A DNA stretch of 36,652 bases from a virus: positions 1 through 36,652 of IMG/VR virus record IMGVR_UViG_3300035695_000015. The stretch is one strand, 5' to 3'. The notes under the pieces are model-generated. The model had not been told where the DNA came from and ran no database searches. It worked only from the letters and a program-made list of their open reading frames with translations. This document shows, one piece after another, positions 6,837 through 36,652 of this stretch; the stretch's first letter is position 1; the number at the start of each line of letters is the position of its first letter. Both the position numbers and the translations under genes were made by a program.

Positions 6837-7586
6837 TTAGCTCGCCGCACGCAATACTTGATAGGAAATAGTTGTAGCCGCTCCAGGATCACCTGACAAT
6901 AGAACCGTAACGGTATCTGATGTTGGTGTTACCTTCTGAACAGTCACAGCATTCGTGCTTTCCTGAATCTGTGCAAAAACAACGTCCGTTACCAATGTGC
7001 CAGTGACCGTGATAGCAATTGTTGCTGACCCACCGCCATTAGCTTGTTTACCAGCAAACTTAATAATATGGCTAGGTGTAATTCCAGCGTCCAATTTTGC
7101 AAGCGTCACGTTAGCGTCAAGAATCTTAGCTGTTGTAACATTCGCATCAGCAATCTTGGCTGTAGTAACATTAGCATCTGTAATCTTAGCCGTCGTTATT
7201 GCATTTGCAGCAATCGTCAATACGCCTGTATTGCTAACAGTAGCATCGCCAGACATCGTTACGCCTGTCGCAACGCCACCAGCATTACCCACAAAAATCT
7301 GGCCATTTGCCAAAGCTAGCGGGGTTGAGTTTGTCGTTAATGACCAGTTGCCACCTGAAAATGTAACATTGAACAGATCGACAGTAGCAGTAAAAGCATT
7401 TGGTGTCGTTCTTGTAACGACTACTGCCATATCTGTTTCAAATAACTGATTTCCCTGAGAAACAAAATGGTTAAGATAACCAGCAGTTGAAACGGTCGCT
7501 ACTGTGTCATTTGTATTCAAAAAAACGAATCTCGGAACGTTCCCTGTGTTACCTATTGCATTTAATAAAAAGTTTAAAATAGCCAT
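6837..7586 (-). CDS. Tail fibre/virion surface protein with decapeptide repeats
   Basis: This 249-residue protein has an N-terminal A-I-L-N-F-L-L-N-A-I-G segment, a beta-rich middle and, at about residues 130-165, consecutive T-T-A-K-I-x-D-A-N-V decapeptides, then a beta-rich C terminus. Such low-complexity, Thr/Ala/Val-rich proteins are typical of fibre or adhesin parts of phage virions. It lies at the end of the structural operon before the endolysin. AAGGAGAAGATGAA gives a strong ribosome-binding site. Confidence 0.75.
   Translation of the reverse strand: MAILNFLLNAIGNTGNVPRFVFLNTNDTVATVSTAGYLNHFVSQGNQLFETDMAVVVTRTTPNAFTATVDLFNVTFSGGNWSLTTNSTPLALANGQIFVGNAGGVATGVTMSGDATVSNTGVLTIAANAITTAKITDANVTTAKIADANVTTAKILDANVTLAKLDAGITPSHIIKFAGKQANGGGSATIAITVTGTLVTDVVFAQIQESTNAVTVQKVTPTSDTVTVLLSGDPGAATTISYQVLRAAS
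7105..7194. repeat. Three 30-bp tandem repeats inside the fibre gene
   Basis: The units 7105-7134, 7135-7164 and 7165-7194 are imperfect copies, each encoding ten residues of the A-K-I-x-D-A-N-V-T-T type. Degenerate extra units flank them. Such repeats can change in number by slippage and alter fibre length. Confidence 0.75.
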
Positions 7587-30051: not shown

Positions 30052-30741
30052 TTAAAGCTCATTATGAGGCCGTGGTTCAATTTTATTTTTACCCGCCATG
30101 TTGGTATTGGTTTGGCATTTGTAATTAATCCTAGCCCTTCCTTTTGAGATTTTAACAAGGTTCTTTAACTCCTCTGGTGGTTTACATCGTTTGTAAGCCT
30201 CATTTCGCTTAATGCTAGCCTTCTCATTCATCATGGGTGCGAAATCATGTTTCTTTTCGTTATCAGCCTTATGGTTTTCCACAGTTTTTGGCTTTTTGGA
30301 TTTAGGCGAAGCGCAAAAGCTTTTTTTATATTTATTATTATATTTATTATTATGGTCCGACTTAGCAGAATTTTTTTCTGCTAACTCGGAATTTCTGTCT
30401 GCTATCTCGGAATTTAGATTATTTTTTGATCTATTTACTCTTGGCTTATCCACAGGCAATCCTTCAGTTTCTATAAATCTGGAAGGCTGCAAAATGTATT
30501 TTTTTCCACCTTTTCTGACTCGTTTTATTTCATTCATTTTTTCAAAATAAAGAAGGGATTCATAAATTGTGGATTTAGCGAGCCCTGTTCTTTCCACAAA
30601 TTCATCAATTCCAATGAAACATGGTTTATTGCTATACCAAAGATTAAAAATATGGGCATAAACTTTTATGTAAGATAATTGAACACCTTCAAGATAATAA
30701 ATTCGATTTGGAATTATGGATAAATTAAGCTCAAATGACAT
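30052..30741 (-). CDS. Replication initiator with winged-helix N terminus (lambda O-like)
   Basis: The 229-residue protein has an N-terminal helix-turn-helix/winged-helix region (I-G-I-D-E-F-V-E-R-T-G-L-A-K-S-T-I-Y-E-S-L, near residues 42-62, then a basic wing), a linker of seven-residue repeats (N-S-E-I-A-D-R, N-S-E-L-A-E-K, N-S-A-K-S-D-H) and a basic tail. Phage initiators of the lambda O type bind the origin, which is often inside their own gene, and recruit a helicase. The repeats in the linker are also DNA repeats at 30356-30415. No helicase gene was recognised, so the host helicase is presumably used. Confidence 0.72.
   Translation of the reverse strand: MSFELNLSIIPNRIYYLEGVQLSYIKVYAHIFNLWYSNKPCFIGIDEFVERTGLAKSTIYESLLYFEKMNEIKRVRKGGKKYILQPSRFIETEGLPVDKPRVNRSKNNLNSEIADRNSELAEKNSAKSDHNNKYNNKYKKSFCASPKSKKPKTVENHKADNEKKHDFAPMMNEKASIKRNEAYKRCKPPEELKNLVKISKGRARINYKCQTNTNMAGKNKIEPRPHNEL
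30275..30454. other. Candidate replication origin inside the initiator gene
   Basis: From left to right the region holds a DnaA-box-like TTTTCCACA (30275-30283), an AT-rich tract (30321-30353), a 15-bp inverted repeat with one mismatch and a T5 loop (30356-30370 with 30376-30390), a direct repeat TCTGCTAACTCGGAATTT / TCTGCTATCTCGGAATTT with 21-bp period (30377-30394, 30398-30415) and a perfect DnaA box TTATCCACA (30446-30454). Iterons beside an AT-rich unwinding element in an O-like gene is the lambda origin design. Confidence 0.55.
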
Positions 30742-31438: not shown

Positions 31439-31693
31439 TTACTTTTCCGCCTCAAGCATCTCACTTTCAGCCTGCTTAATCAAATGATTGTAAGCCTCTT
31501 TGCGAGACTTGAACAAATTTTCCTCTTTGTACCAGAGATTCTTATCGCAGGTGTAATAAAGCCCATCTTCATTCTTTACAATCCCGTTGATTGATATCTC
31601 TAGGATAAGATGAGTCTGCATGCCCACATTATACGCATACGCCTTATCTCCTATTAAAAACTTACTTCCTTTAGTGCAAATTAGCGCTGTCAC
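31439..31693 (-). CDS. Hypothetical protein (84 aa), GTG start
   Basis: I chose GTG 31693 because AAGGAGG lies six bases upstream; an ATG seven codons earlier has no such site. The product begins T-A-L-I-C-T-K-G-S-K-F-L-I-G-D-K-A-Y and ends in a helical, charged tail. It looks like a small beta domain plus helix. No family recognised. It overlaps the preceding gene by 23 bases. Confidence 0.68.
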   Translation of the reverse strand: MTALICTKGSKFLIGDKAYAYNVGMQTHLILEISINGIVKNEDGLYYTCDKNLWYKEENLFKSRKEAYNHLIKQAESEMLEAEK

Positions 31694-31961
31694 TTGCTGC
31701 CTCCTTAACTTCATTTTGTAAATTGTCTAATGCTGCCTGAGATTGATCCAATTTGGCAAGCTCACGCCTGAAATCCATATACCACGAGCAGAATTGAGCG
31801 GATATCCAGATAGCGCTTCCCTGCTCGATTAGTTTTGTACTGACCATGTCTGTCTCAAGGACAAGCATTAAATTACGAATATCCTCAAAAACTCCCTTAA
31901 TTCGATTAATCTGTTCGTCTTTCTCTTCTTGAGACATTTCAGACATCTTGACTTGTTTCAC
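31671..31961 (-). CDS. Hypothetical helical protein (96 aa), GTG start
   Basis: GTG at 31961 has AAGGAG six bases upstream. The protein is helical and acidic at the start (M-S-Q-E-E-K-D-E-Q) with several Trp/Phe in the middle and a coiled-coil end. It overlaps the HTH-YopX gene by 23 bases. No family recognised. Confidence 0.68.
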   Translation of the reverse strand: MKQVKMSEMSQEEKDEQINRIKGVFEDIRNLMLVLETDMVSTKLIEQGSAIWISAQFCSWYMDFRRELAKLDQSQAALDNLQNEVKEAASDSANLH

Positions 31962-32517
31962 TATGAACTCCTTCGAAAGAATTACCTATTATTGAAAAAT
32001 TTCCCTCTATTCCATCAGAAACATTGTTTTCTGAATAAATTTGATCCAGATTTTTAAAAGTAATCTGAGTGTTTTCATCATAAATCTCATGATTATGAAA
32101 AACCACAATATCATTTTCATACAAAAATGATCCATTAATGTCTTTTATAGAACTGCCTTGCATCAGGCATTTTTTATCAAAAGAAGTAAATGTCTTATTA
32201 ACATCATCTTTGTAGAAGATAATCTTTGTGTTAAATCTTGGCTTGAATATGAGAGATTTTACCTTGCACATTCCAAGTTTGTCGCTCCAAAAGCGATACA
32301 TCGGAAAATGCAATATTTCCTGATTTTTAATAATATCAAGATGAGATTTATTGCTTGCTTTTAACTTACCTTTTGAATCTTGTTCAAACCGTTTCTGTTT
32401 GTCGTAGGGAATCGCGCCTAACTTATTCCACCGATAAGCAATCTGTCTGGAAACGCCAATAGCAGTCGCTGCACAACACATCGTTCCGTAATATTCGCAG
32501 ACTTCTTCAAGCGTCAT
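31939..32517 (-). CDS. Cro-type HTH protein fused to a YopX-like domain
   Basis: Residues 1-55 match the Cro/YdaS-like fold: T-L-E-E-V-C-E-Y-Y-G-T, then A-T-A-I-G-V-S-R-Q-I-A-Y-R-W-N-K-L-G-A-I-P-Y and K-G-K-L-K-A-S. The C-terminal part (about 115-185) has the YopX pattern of L-M-Q-G-S-S-I-K-D-I-N-G-S-F-L-Y-E-N-D-I-V followed later by F-S-I-I-G-N-S-F-E. The stand-alone YopX protein at 36057-36377 shows the same blocks. This is the only clear transcription-regulator candidate. Its ATG overlaps the stop of the preceding gene. Confidence 0.8.
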   Translation of the reverse strand: MTLEEVCEYYGTMCCAATAIGVSRQIAYRWNKLGAIPYDKQKRFEQDSKGKLKASNKSHLDIIKNQEILHFPMYRFWSDKLGMCKVKSLIFKPRFNTKIIFYKDDVNKTFTSFDKKCLMQGSSIKDINGSFLYENDIVVFHNHEIYDENTQITFKNLDQIYSENNVSDGIEGNFSIIGNSFEGVHSETSQDV

Positions 32518-32717
32518 TGATTATCCTTATTTTGATATCTTTTTAAAGCATCTTCATATCGAATAGTATATTTATTATGATTAGAACACGTATAAACAGA
32601 CGGTAAAAAAAATCCACCTAATGGAATTATATGATAGCGCTCAATTAGTCCTCCTTCACACTCTTCATTTTCAAAAAAACATGTTGGATGGATATATTCT
32701 TTTTTTTTAATTGCCAT
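32514..32717 (-). CDS. Small hypothetical protein with Cys/His residues
   Basis: The 67-residue product begins A-I-K-K-K-E-Y-I-H-P-T-C and has C-E-G-G, a Y-H-I-I-P-L-G-G-F-F segment and Y-T-C-S-N-H-N-K-Y. The spaced Cys and His resemble a minimal HNH/zinc fold, but no complete catalytic motif is visible. It overlaps both neighbours by one to four bases. Confidence 0.62.
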   Translation of the reverse strand: MAIKKKEYIHPTCFFENEECEGGLIERYHIIPLGGFFLPSVYTCSNHNKYTIRYEDALKRYQNKDNQ

Positions 32718-32872: not shown

Positions 32873-32939
32873 TTTTATTTTGTATCCAATTAATGCTAAA
32901 ATATATTCAACAACACCCGCTACGCCTCTTAATAATGCG

Positions 32940-32956
32940 AACCCGAGCGGGTTTTT
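32940..32956 (+). terminator. Terminator-like hairpin on the plus strand
   Basis: AACCC-GAGC-GGGTT is followed by a T run (TTTTT ends at 32956). An alternative longer stem pairs CCCGCT (32916-32921) with AGCGGG (32946-32951). No plus-strand gene precedes it, so it may block antisense transcription. Confidence 0.4.
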
Positions 32957-33307: not shown

Positions 33308-33389
33308 TGGAAAGGGCTGGATTCGAACCAGCGCGCCTTTTGGGAGCAAATTTACAGTCTGCCGGTTTCAGCCACTCACCCACCTTTTC
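33308..33389 (-). tRNA. tRNA-Tyr (anticodon GUA)
   Basis: The minus-strand RNA folds as a type II tRNA: acceptor GAAAAGG/CCTTTCC with one A-C mismatch, D arm with GAGTGGCTGAA loop, anticodon stem GCAGA/TTTGC with loop CTGTAAA, a variable arm, and a T arm GCTGG-TTCGAAT-CCAGC. The anticodon GTA reads tyrosine codons, and the long variable arm fits bacterial tRNA-Tyr. CCA is not encoded. It is the only tRNA noticed in the window. Confidence 0.93.
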
Positions 33390-34956: not shown

Positions 34957-34985
34957 TTGACATGGTAAAACATCCTCGCTACAAT
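34957..34985 (+). promoter_or_regulatory. Early rightward promoter with ACATGGTAA operator
   Basis: TTGACA (34957-34962) and TACAAT (34980-34985) are separated by exactly 17 bases, close to the sigma70 consensus. ACATGGTAA (34960-34968) overlaps the -35 box and spacer, so a bound protein would block polymerase. It drives yqaJ and the long early operon. Confidence 0.82.
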
Positions 34986-34992
34986 TACAACC

Positions 34993-35054
34993 GTTGAATA
35001 CTTAAATGAGATTTCTCGAATCAGTGATGTGGCGCGAATGTTTGGGTATTCAAC
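34993..35054 (+). promoter_or_regulatory. Inverted repeat in the early-operon 5' leader
   Basis: GTTGAATAC (34993-35001) and GTATTCAAC (35046-35054) are perfect inverted copies enclosing 44 bases, just after the expected transcription start. The stem would fold at the 5' end of the mRNA and ends about 30 bases before the yqaJ start. Confidence 0.55.
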
Positions 35055-35085
35055 ATTATTATTAACTAACTTACGTAGATAACCT

Positions 35086-35934
35086 ATGATAACTGAAGAA
35101 CAAAGATTAGAAAGACGACTAGGAATCGGCGGATCGGATATGCCGATTATTCTAGGATTCTCAAGCTATAAAACCCCTTACCAGCTTTACTGCGAAAAGA
35201 AAGGAATAATAGATACTACTTTTGAAAAGACTCCCCTACAATACTGGGGAGAACAATTAGAGCCTGTTATCCGTAGAGAATTCAGAAAACGTAATCATGT
35301 TTTAATCAAGAACCCCAAAACAACATTCGTTCATCCATTCTATGACTTTATCCGTGGAAATCTGGATGGATTCATTCCCAAGTGGAATGCTGTATTTGAG
35401 GCCAAGTGCTCTCATGCCTTCATGGCGCAGAATTGGGGTGAATCTGGTTCAGATACGATTCCAATGGAATATCTGGTACAGGTAGCCTTCTATTGCAGCA
35501 TAACGAACTCAGATGCGGCCTATATAGCTGTCCTGATCGGAGGGAACGATTATCGGGAATTCAAATATACCCGTGATCTTGAGCTTGAACACAACATCAT
35601 AAATGCAGCCGCTAACTTCTGGTATGCGGTACAACATGATATTGCTCCACCCCCTACTGCTATGATTGACCTAAAGTTAATGTACCCTAAAACAGACCCT
35701 AATAAGATTAAAACAATTAACAAAGAAATAATGGAACAATACTCACGATTTGTGGGTGTCAAGGAAAAAATCAAAGAACTTACAGAACAGGCCAACAAAG
35801 AAAGATTTAACATATTGAAGTTTATGGAAGATACAGAATGCCTTGTTGATGAATGGGGAAATACCATTGCAACAGCAAAAATCAATAAAAGAGGAACTAG
35901 AACGTTTTTGGTTAAAGGAGATAGAGATGAATGA
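35086..35934 (+). CDS. YqaJ-family recombination exonuclease
   Basis: The 282-residue protein has the YqaJ/lambda-exonuclease signature: G-I-G-G-S-D (residues 13-18), Y-W-G-E-Q-L-E-P (near 53-60), G-N-L-D-G-F (Asp94), F-E-A-K-C (Glu105, Lys107) and Y-L-V-Q-V (Gln132). These are the metal-binding residues of the PD-(D/E)xK fold. It digests one strand of double-stranded DNA ends to make tails for RecT. It is the first gene of the early operon, with only a weak ribosome-binding site. Confidence 0.9.
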   Translation: MITEEQRLERRLGIGGSDMPIILGFSSYKTPYQLYCEKKGIIDTTFEKTPLQYWGEQLEPVIRREFRKRNHVLIKNPKTTFVHPFYDFIRGNLDGFIPKWNAVFEAKCSHAFMAQNWGESGSDTIPMEYLVQVAFYCSITNSDAAYIAVLIGGNDYREFKYTRDLELEHNIINAAANFWYAVQHDIAPPPTAMIDLKLMYPKTDPNKIKTINKEIMEQYSRFVGVKEKIKELTEQANKERFNILKFMEDTECLVDEWGNTIATAKINKRGTRTFLVKGDRDE

Positions 35935-36073
35935 ATTCGACCTTGAAAGAATCACGATAGAATTTAAAAAATCACAAATGCATGACCCTGTGATATTTAA
36001 AGGAACCGTTAAGGAATTTTTTGAACAGTCTGCTAAATTAATACTGGATAAAGAATATGAACCGAGAAATTAA
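35927..36073 (+). CDS. Small hypothetical protein (48 aa)
   Basis: I start it at ATG 35927, which has AAAGGAG seven bases upstream and overlaps the yqaJ stop; the frame is open upstream inside yqaJ but this start fits better. The product is acidic (N-E-F-D-L-E-R-I-T-I-E-F-K) and overlaps the yopX gene by 17 bases. No family recognised. Confidence 0.65.
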   Translation: MNEFDLERITIEFKKSQMHDPVIFKGTVKEFFEQSAKLILDKEYEPRN

Positions 36074-36377
36074 GTTTAGATATTTTTGCTCAAAAGATAA
36101 AAAAATGGTTTATTCGGATGAGTTTCCTGGATTTGAAGGATTCTTCTGTCATTTTGATAATCAATCAAATCCATTGCAGTTCTACACCGGATTAAAAGAC
36201 AAAAACGGAAAGGAGATTTATGACGGGGATATATTAAAAACACCATTTGGAATAATAATCATGTGTTATGAAGATCACATATACAGATGCGGGGTTAGTC
36301 AATCTTGTATTACGATGGAACATTTAGAAATAATAGGCAACATCCACGAAAATCCAGAATTATTGGAGAAACCATGA
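36057..36377 (+). CDS. YopX-family protein
   Basis: The 106-residue protein has the YopX hallmarks: N-terminal N-R-E-I-K-F-R-Y-F, the central L-Q-F-Y-T-G-L-K-D-K-N-G-K-E-I-Y-D-G-D-I-L and a C-terminal L-E-I-I-G-N-I-H-E-N-P-E-L-L. YopX proteins are common in phages of many bacteria, with unknown function. Its stop overlaps the DUF551 start (ATGA). A related domain is fused to an HTH at 31939-32517. Confidence 0.88.
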   Translation: MNREIKFRYFCSKDKKMVYSDEFPGFEGFFCHFDNQSNPLQFYTGLKDKNGKEIYDGDILKTPFGIIIMCYEDHIYRCGVSQSCITMEHLEIIGNIHENPELLEKP

Positions 36378-36652
36378 CTAACAATGAATTTAATAATTGG
36401 ATAGATATACATGAAAAATTACCTATAGACGGTCAAAGATGCATTATATGGGATGAACGGTCTCATGTTTCTTACAATGGAAACCCAGAAACAATAGTTC
36501 ATGTTTATGCAGCATGGTTCATACAAGGTGAACATCGCCCAAATGGACCATGGCGATCATGTGATACCGGTTTTAGTAATAATAAATACCCTTGGTGCTG
36601 GAAAGATGGCGCAATGACATGGGAAAGTCAATACGTAACTCATTGGATGCCA
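36374..36652 (+). CDS. DUF551-type protein, N-terminal part (continues at the left end of the window)
   Basis: The ATG at 36374 overlaps the yopX stop, and AACC follows a GGAG. The frame is open to the window end and continues at position 2 after joining the ends, to stop at 163. The N terminus I-D-I-H-E-K-L-P-I-D-G-Q-R resembles the start of the other DUF551 protein. The joined protein is about 105 residues. Confidence 0.85.
   Translation, partial: MTNNEFNNWIDIHEKLPIDGQRCIIWDERSHVSYNGNPETIVHVYAAWFIQGEHRPNGPWRSCDTGFSNNKYPWCWKDGAMTWESQYVTHWMP
36526..36652. repeat. Terminal direct repeat, right copy
   Basis: This is identical to 1-127 and marks the circular closure of the assembly. Confidence 0.97.

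Follow-up and report, generated by a model that had tools for sequence, protein, structure and literature searches.

A phage protein joining a Cro-type domain to a divergent YopX domain

The Cro proteins of phages N15, phiKO2 and PY54 are all-alpha dimers (PDB 2HIN, 6ON0), and the Cro of P22 (PF14549; PDB 1RZS) is a single small domain. Passages in PMC4488713 report that C-terminal truncation of PY54 Cro raised reporter transcription approximately three- to four-and-a-half-fold, and that the strength of dimerization differs strongly between P22 Cro and N15 Cro (also in a passage of PMC4997575). YopX proteins (PF09643) occur in many phages, and their function is not known. The solved YopX namesake comes from Bacillus subtilis, according to the title of 2I2L; passages in PMC10530707, PMC12323379, PMC10654107 and PMC5524643 interpret the name as that of an outer protein of Yersinia and class the gene as a virulence gene or an auxiliary metabolic one.

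Here, we describe a phage gene that encodes both domains in a single protein. Each domain family is known; the combination stands unremarked in databases (very probably A0A6J5L359). No description of a Cro-YopX fusion was found in the open-access literature on YopX with helix-turn-helix (HTH) or Cro, and the YopX passages in PMC7289586, PMC12323379, PMC10221047 and PMC4168068 describe none. That selection retains a YopX domain on a Cro-type protein is independent evidence that YopX takes part in controlling phage genes, and the fusion offers a tangible starting point for asking what its function may be.

The DNA analyzed, hereafter the window, is a 36,652-base phage record (IMGVR_UViG_3300035695_000015). 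A perfect direct repeat of 127 bp lies at its ends (1–127 = 36526–36652), so that the window appears to be a complete genome of 36,525 bp, assembled as a circle.

Table 1. Positions of the fusion gene, its parts and neighboring features in the window
Feature	Position	Strand	Basis or remark
Cro-YopX fusion protein	31939..32517	-	Open frame, 192 aa; Pfam, PHROG and model matches
N-terminal Cro domain, residues 1–58	32344..32517	-	P22_Cro match, N15 Cro PDB profile, pLDDT 83–97, Z 9.6
Linker, residues 59–70 (~12 residues)	32308..32343	-	Low-pLDDT block 61–70
YopX domain, residues 71–187	31957..32307	-	Pfam, PHROG, structure match, shuffle control
Upstream small gene	32514..32717	-	4-base overlap with fusion start
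Next gene	31671..31961	-	23-base overlap with fusion; kept after the fusion in L004, L006, L051 and L052, 38% identical
Second downstream gene	31439..31714	-	Same order, 54–56% identical in L004, L006, L051 and L052
Replication-initiation (O-like) gene, downstream, same direction	30052..30741	-	PHROG 345, E = 5e-6
Promoter-like site before recE, TTGACA-17-TACAAT	34957..34985	+	11/12 consensus matches
Hairpin in recE leader, arms GTTGAATAC/GTATTCAAC	34993..35054	+	Folding of 34988–35090
RecE-like exonuclease, divergent early gene; beside cro in relatives	35086..35934	+	PHROG 434, E = 1.8e-64
Free YopX protein, 106 aa, downstream of recE	36057..36377	+	PF09643, E = 8.6e-18

Domain architecture of the fusion protein

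The fusion gene begins with an ATG codon and has TAAGGA upstream. A profile search matched residues 4–59 of its product to P22_Cro (PF14549, E = 5.9e-6, 26.4 bits; curated cut-off 30.2) and residues 101–182 to YopX (PF09643, E = 3.1e-4, 21.2 bits; cut-off 22.4). PHROG 409, annotated as transcriptional regulator, covered residues 1–58 (E = 9.2e-8), and PHROG 98, which also catches the free YopX protein of the same phage, covered residues 72–182 (E = 4.3e-7). Since both Pfam scores lay just below their cut-offs, relatives were sought. Two of them (L006 and L051), whose fusions are ~41% identical to the window protein, exceeded both thresholds, with 38.4 and 37.5 bits for P22_Cro and 23.4 and 24.1 bits for YopX, respectively. 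Among PDB profiles, the N-terminal half matched N15 Cro best (2hin/6on0, E = 4.5e-6), followed by P22 Cro (1rzs, E = 0.0018).

A structure of the full-length window protein was then predicted by AlphaFold2 from 50 aligned sequences: three fusions, six stand-alone Cro proteins and 41 YopX cores (40 of 64 trimmed core sequences and the window's own). Trimmed cores were used because in the MAFFT alignment the first strand of free YopX was shifted relative to that of the fusion. The pLDDT block means (83–97 in the Cro part, 57–81 over residues 71–190, lower in the tail) and a pTM of 0.48 indicate two domains whose mutual placement is uncertain. Helices were predicted at residues 3–10, 13–19, 24–33, 38–47 and 57–65, of which the first four are confident and include the HTH; the model thus has the all-alpha fold of the P22/N15-type Cro. 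Compared by VIA-align 2, residues 1–57 superimposed on N15 Cro with Z 9.6 (rmsd 1.6 over 57 residues, 32% identity), and P22 Cro reached Z 9.2 over 61 residues; the two Cro matches fall within residues 1–65 of the window protein. The L006 model again matched Cro (Z 9.1). A YdaS structure scored only Z 4.4 against the window model, and the YdaS_toxin family was not among the matches listed for the window protein and was below its cut-off of 30 in L006 (17.5 bits). DNA binding by the Cro half is likely, judging from these profile and fold matches.

Residues ~68–189 of the model matched all four solved YopX structures, 2ox7, 2qyz, 2p84 and 2i2l, with Z 8.2, 7.6, 7.4 and 6.0, respectively (113 residues aligned to 2ox7, rmsd 4.5). 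These values are at about the middling level of VIA-align 2, and no other family reached them for the C-terminal half; the matches of the L006 model were weaker (Z 5.8–5.0 over 57–65 residues). A profile of 80 free YopX proteins (79 of the 80 loci kept, plus the window's own) gave 27.9 bits on the fused half of the window, against 13.1 for the best of 500 shuffles. The fused halves of L006 and L051 scored 16.9 bits each, with shuffles at 13.3 and 13.2. From the YopX signature TGLKDxxGxxIYEGDI / IGNIHENPEL, the fusion has kept D, G, E, D and I as well as IGN..E, and has lost TGL and NPEL.

Such losses, together with the sub-threshold Pfam scores, would suit an artefact, in which the C-terminal half is not YopX at all or the open reading frame wrongly joins two genes. 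However, the same architecture recurred in six contigs as three distinct sequences, the relatives L006 and L051 stood above both cut-offs, shuffled sequences scored below the fused half, and the model matched four YopX structures. We therefore consider an artefact extremely improbable and, as far as sequence can decide, already refuted. An internal start producing a separate YopX isoform was rejected as well: TTG at residue 69 and ATG at residue 73 of the window protein are absent at the equivalent positions of L006 and L051, and the three sequences share no start codon where the two domains meet.

Collectively, the profiles, homologues, shuffles and model confirm the central claim of the preliminary description, a Cro-type DNA-binding domain fused to a YopX-like domain. 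The window frame encodes one protein, made of an N15/P22-type Cro, a linker, and a divergent but complete YopX. The description had placed the YopX part at residues 110–192; the match holds and the boundary does not, as the domain begins at about residue 70. Likewise, of its Cro/YdaS assignment of the HTH, Cro is favored over YdaS, which is weaker in profiles and in structure.

Homologues and selection

An IMG/VR scan with the terminase yielded 46 related loci. Full-length homologues of the fusion were found by tblastn in L004 and L006 (41% identity over residues 1–184), and a profile scan added the fusion loci L051, L052 and L055; these five contigs hold two distinct sequences besides that of the window. 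L006 and L051 differ at 69 of 546 bases. For this one pair, dN/dS (Nei-Gojobori) was 0.171 in the Cro domain and 0.089 in the YopX domain, against 1.37 in a 15-residue linker, the last value resting on 17 changes. By this codon-level comparison the Cro and YopX domains are under purifying selection and the linker is not, as expected of two functional domains on a free tether.

The best match among predicted viral structures (BFVD) was A0A6J5L359, a 184-aa 'YopX protein' of an uncultured Caudovirales phage that aligned with the window protein over 189 columns (29% identity, E = 4.9e-13). On this structural match, it is very probably another Cro-YopX fusion, outside the present phage set. Scanning with the YopX half recovered the five fusion contigs already found and no others, and a scan of genome contigs with the fusion gave no match. 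Among 80 free-YopX loci kept of 467, none had an N-terminal extension of more than 42 aa. Of 52 YopX matches in 395 genomes of one phylum, the frames of 30 were inspected by eye and none of these showed an HTH. A tblastn match in Fusobacterium phage Funu1 (E = 0.07), considered as a second fusion, spans two separate genes and was discarded. We also noted, by eye, a C-terminal zinc-ribbon-like extension (CPMCGG...CVRC) on the YopX proteins of L141 and L142, a further case in which YopX is joined to what may be a nucleic-acid module.

The cro position, the early region and the free YopX protein

Next, we compared gene order. The Cro profile, built from nine sequences (the window and eight of the matched loci), found a Cro in 13 of 51 related loci, many of which are too short to include the Cro region. 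Five of the 13 were fusions and eight were stand-alone Cro proteins (L010, L011, L012, L018, L022, L029, L048 and L057); the finds independent of the make-up of the profile are only L011, L048, the second copy in L012, L004, L052 and L055. Pfam P22_Cro was found in all seven related records tested, once in each except for two copies in the L012 record, with the matches of L011 and the window below the cut-off. In L011, L018, L022 and L029 the stand-alone Cro (~60–70 aa) is divergent from recE and lies 0.1–0.4 kb from it, and none of the three fusion genomes tested had a P22_Cro match other than the fusion. As relatives keep a stand-alone Cro, in four of them beside recE, the fusion appears to replace it. 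The regulatory nature that the preliminary description had ascribed to the fusion is supported by this equivalent slot and by the sole match in three genomes.

The neighborhood fits an early control region next to replication genes, a trait of P22/N15-type Cro: the fusion lies upstream of a replication gene, and its downstream neighbors in all the fusion phages compared are two conserved small genes and then a replication-type gene. Its distance from recE is 1.1 kb in L006, 1.8 kb in L051 and 2.6 kb in the window, where several small genes intervene, so that it is not promoter-proximal as in the phages with stand-alone Cro. A tyrosine integrase was found in none of seven related records (14/14 controls recovered), and HTH_3 (PF01381) gave no match in the window, L006 or L051 and a weak one in a single record of seven. 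Hence, no lambda-type CI is visible that a classical Cro would oppose. The Cro half resembles enterobacterial N15-type Cro, and two related contigs were binned, possibly wrongly, in Bacteroidota MAGs.

This position bears on the idea that the Cro half merely addresses YopX to phage DNA for replication, recombination or protection rather than transcription. The fusion gene does lie upstream of a replication-initiation gene, and YopX genes often sit in replication modules (also a passage of PMC10530707). Nevertheless, relatives carry a stand-alone Cro in the equivalent slot, which would make no sense for such a function in the absence of YopX, and we regard this explanation as improbable.

The recE upstream regions were inspected for possible operators. 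In L018 (1884–2022) and L029 (1739–1895) the recE and cro promoters appear by eye to overlap fully, most clearly in L018, with inverted TTGACA arms. These arms could be operators, and the overlapping promoters appear to form a compact switch without CI. Nothing equivalent to this motif was found in the fusion phages, and no clear palindrome is common to the sequences upstream of recE in the window, L006 and L051. The recE leader of the window folds at –22.4 kcal/mol (z –2.3; 5 of 200 shuffles as good).

Several RNA features were noted in passing. The recE leaders of L006 (2737–2996) and L051 (4181–4440) contain tRNA-like pieces (GGAAATC ... GGTTCAATTCC / GGTTCGAATCC ... GATTTC), which ARAGORN does not call as a tRNA, and a tRNA-Tyr (gta) lies within the leftward early gene cluster of the window (33308–33389, minus strand). 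The Rfam abiF RNA (RF03085) was found in the window at 32916–32952 on the plus strand (37.1 bits; gathering threshold 37) and in L022 at 6867–6904 (47.2 bits), i.e. above the cut-off in two of 26 records, window and relatives together, with two further matches below. No Abi_2 protein gene was found in the window phage or L022; such an orphan abiF RNA could serve a phage as a decoy for an abortive-infection system of the host.

The free YopX protein of the window, confirmed here as a canonical member of the family, had been proposed as a possible interaction partner of the fusion. YopX matches occurred in only two of 24 related records, and both were the fusion itself; no second YopX match at E ≤ 0.1 was found in the records of L006 (G002) or L051 (G027). 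As the ends of these records overlap by 123 bp and 127 bp, respectively, both are apparently complete circular assemblies. Free YopX is therefore not a needed partner and the proposal is weakened, though the two proteins could interact in the window phage alone. A recent duplication of this free YopX onto Cro was rejected as the origin of the fused half, because BLAST matches between them were short and weak (best 41% over 17 aa, E = 0.008).

The free YopX of the window was matched by 410 of 50,697 phage records. Among 143 neighbors at 75 free-YopX loci, the named families serve mostly replication, recombination or methylation (DNA polymerases, NinB, NinG, RusA, primase/helicase). This would suit a sensor function of the YopX half. 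Binding to a protein of the phage or its host would then turn the Cro half on or off and so couple early replication and transcription by feedback; the protein bound would be a replication or recombination factor or, in phages that have it, free YopX. The two conserved small genes and the replication gene behind the fusion agree with this, as does the YopX half being the most constrained part of the fusion. Against it, no constant partner emerged, since families other than YopX types each occurred in no more than 3 of the 143 neighbors, and the two apparently complete fusion genomes do without free YopX. We hold a sensor to be a tentative and rather unlikely alternative.

Proposed role and comparison with known systems

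The reading that we favor, at a probability of about one in two, is that the fusion is the Cro-type early repressor of the phage, i.e. the usual Cro with a C-terminal YopX domain for self-association. Of this, sequence and model comparisons establish that both domains are present and conserved together and that the gene occupies a cro-like position. A usual ~60-aa Cro would have gained a C-terminal YopX domain and become the early repressor of the window phage. Its Cro half would most likely bind, as a dimer, to a single palindromic operator or to a small number of them and turn down early transcription, with the promoter-like site before recE as a possible, candidate target. The YopX half, on its free linker, would most likely add a protein-protein contact, and our guess is that by self-association it reinforces dimers on DNA or links them to one another. 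A further association module at the C-terminus is plausible, given the effect of the PY54 Cro C-terminus and the difference in dimerization between P22 and N15 Cro.

Another view, to which we give little credence, is that phages generally use YopX as a domain for contacting the transcription machinery and that Cro-YopX is its tethered version at one promoter. UvrD and CarD dock on RNA polymerase, and the SH3/Tudor-like N-terminal half of YopX might dock in the same way on host RNA polymerase or on the phage replication complex. The SH3/Tudor-like matches reached Z 3.4–4.4 in a low-confidence part of the L006 model, and RNA-polymerase docking is therefore kept only as an outside case. If true, Cro-YopX would be more than a road-block, and free YopX proteins would be diffusible regulators of early transcription.

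The closest described counterparts are the Cro proteins of N15, phiKO2 and PY54, which residues 1–57 of the fusion resemble. Those proteins stop soon after the fifth helix, whereas the window protein adds a YopX domain of ~117 residues, and no CI/CB gene was seen beside the fusion. P22 Cro is likewise confined to one small domain, in contrast to the 192 residues of the window protein, whose match to the P22 family stays below the Pfam cut-off; the window phage shares with P22 a P22-like portal. A0A6J5L359, whose structural match makes it a probable counterpart, is annotated only as YopX in BFVD and UniProt. With the YopX family (2I2L, 2OX7, 2P84, 2QYZ) the fusion has DxxG, ExDI and IGN..E in common, and it differs from that family in lacking TGL and NPEL and in carrying its YopX domain behind a DNA-binding domain.
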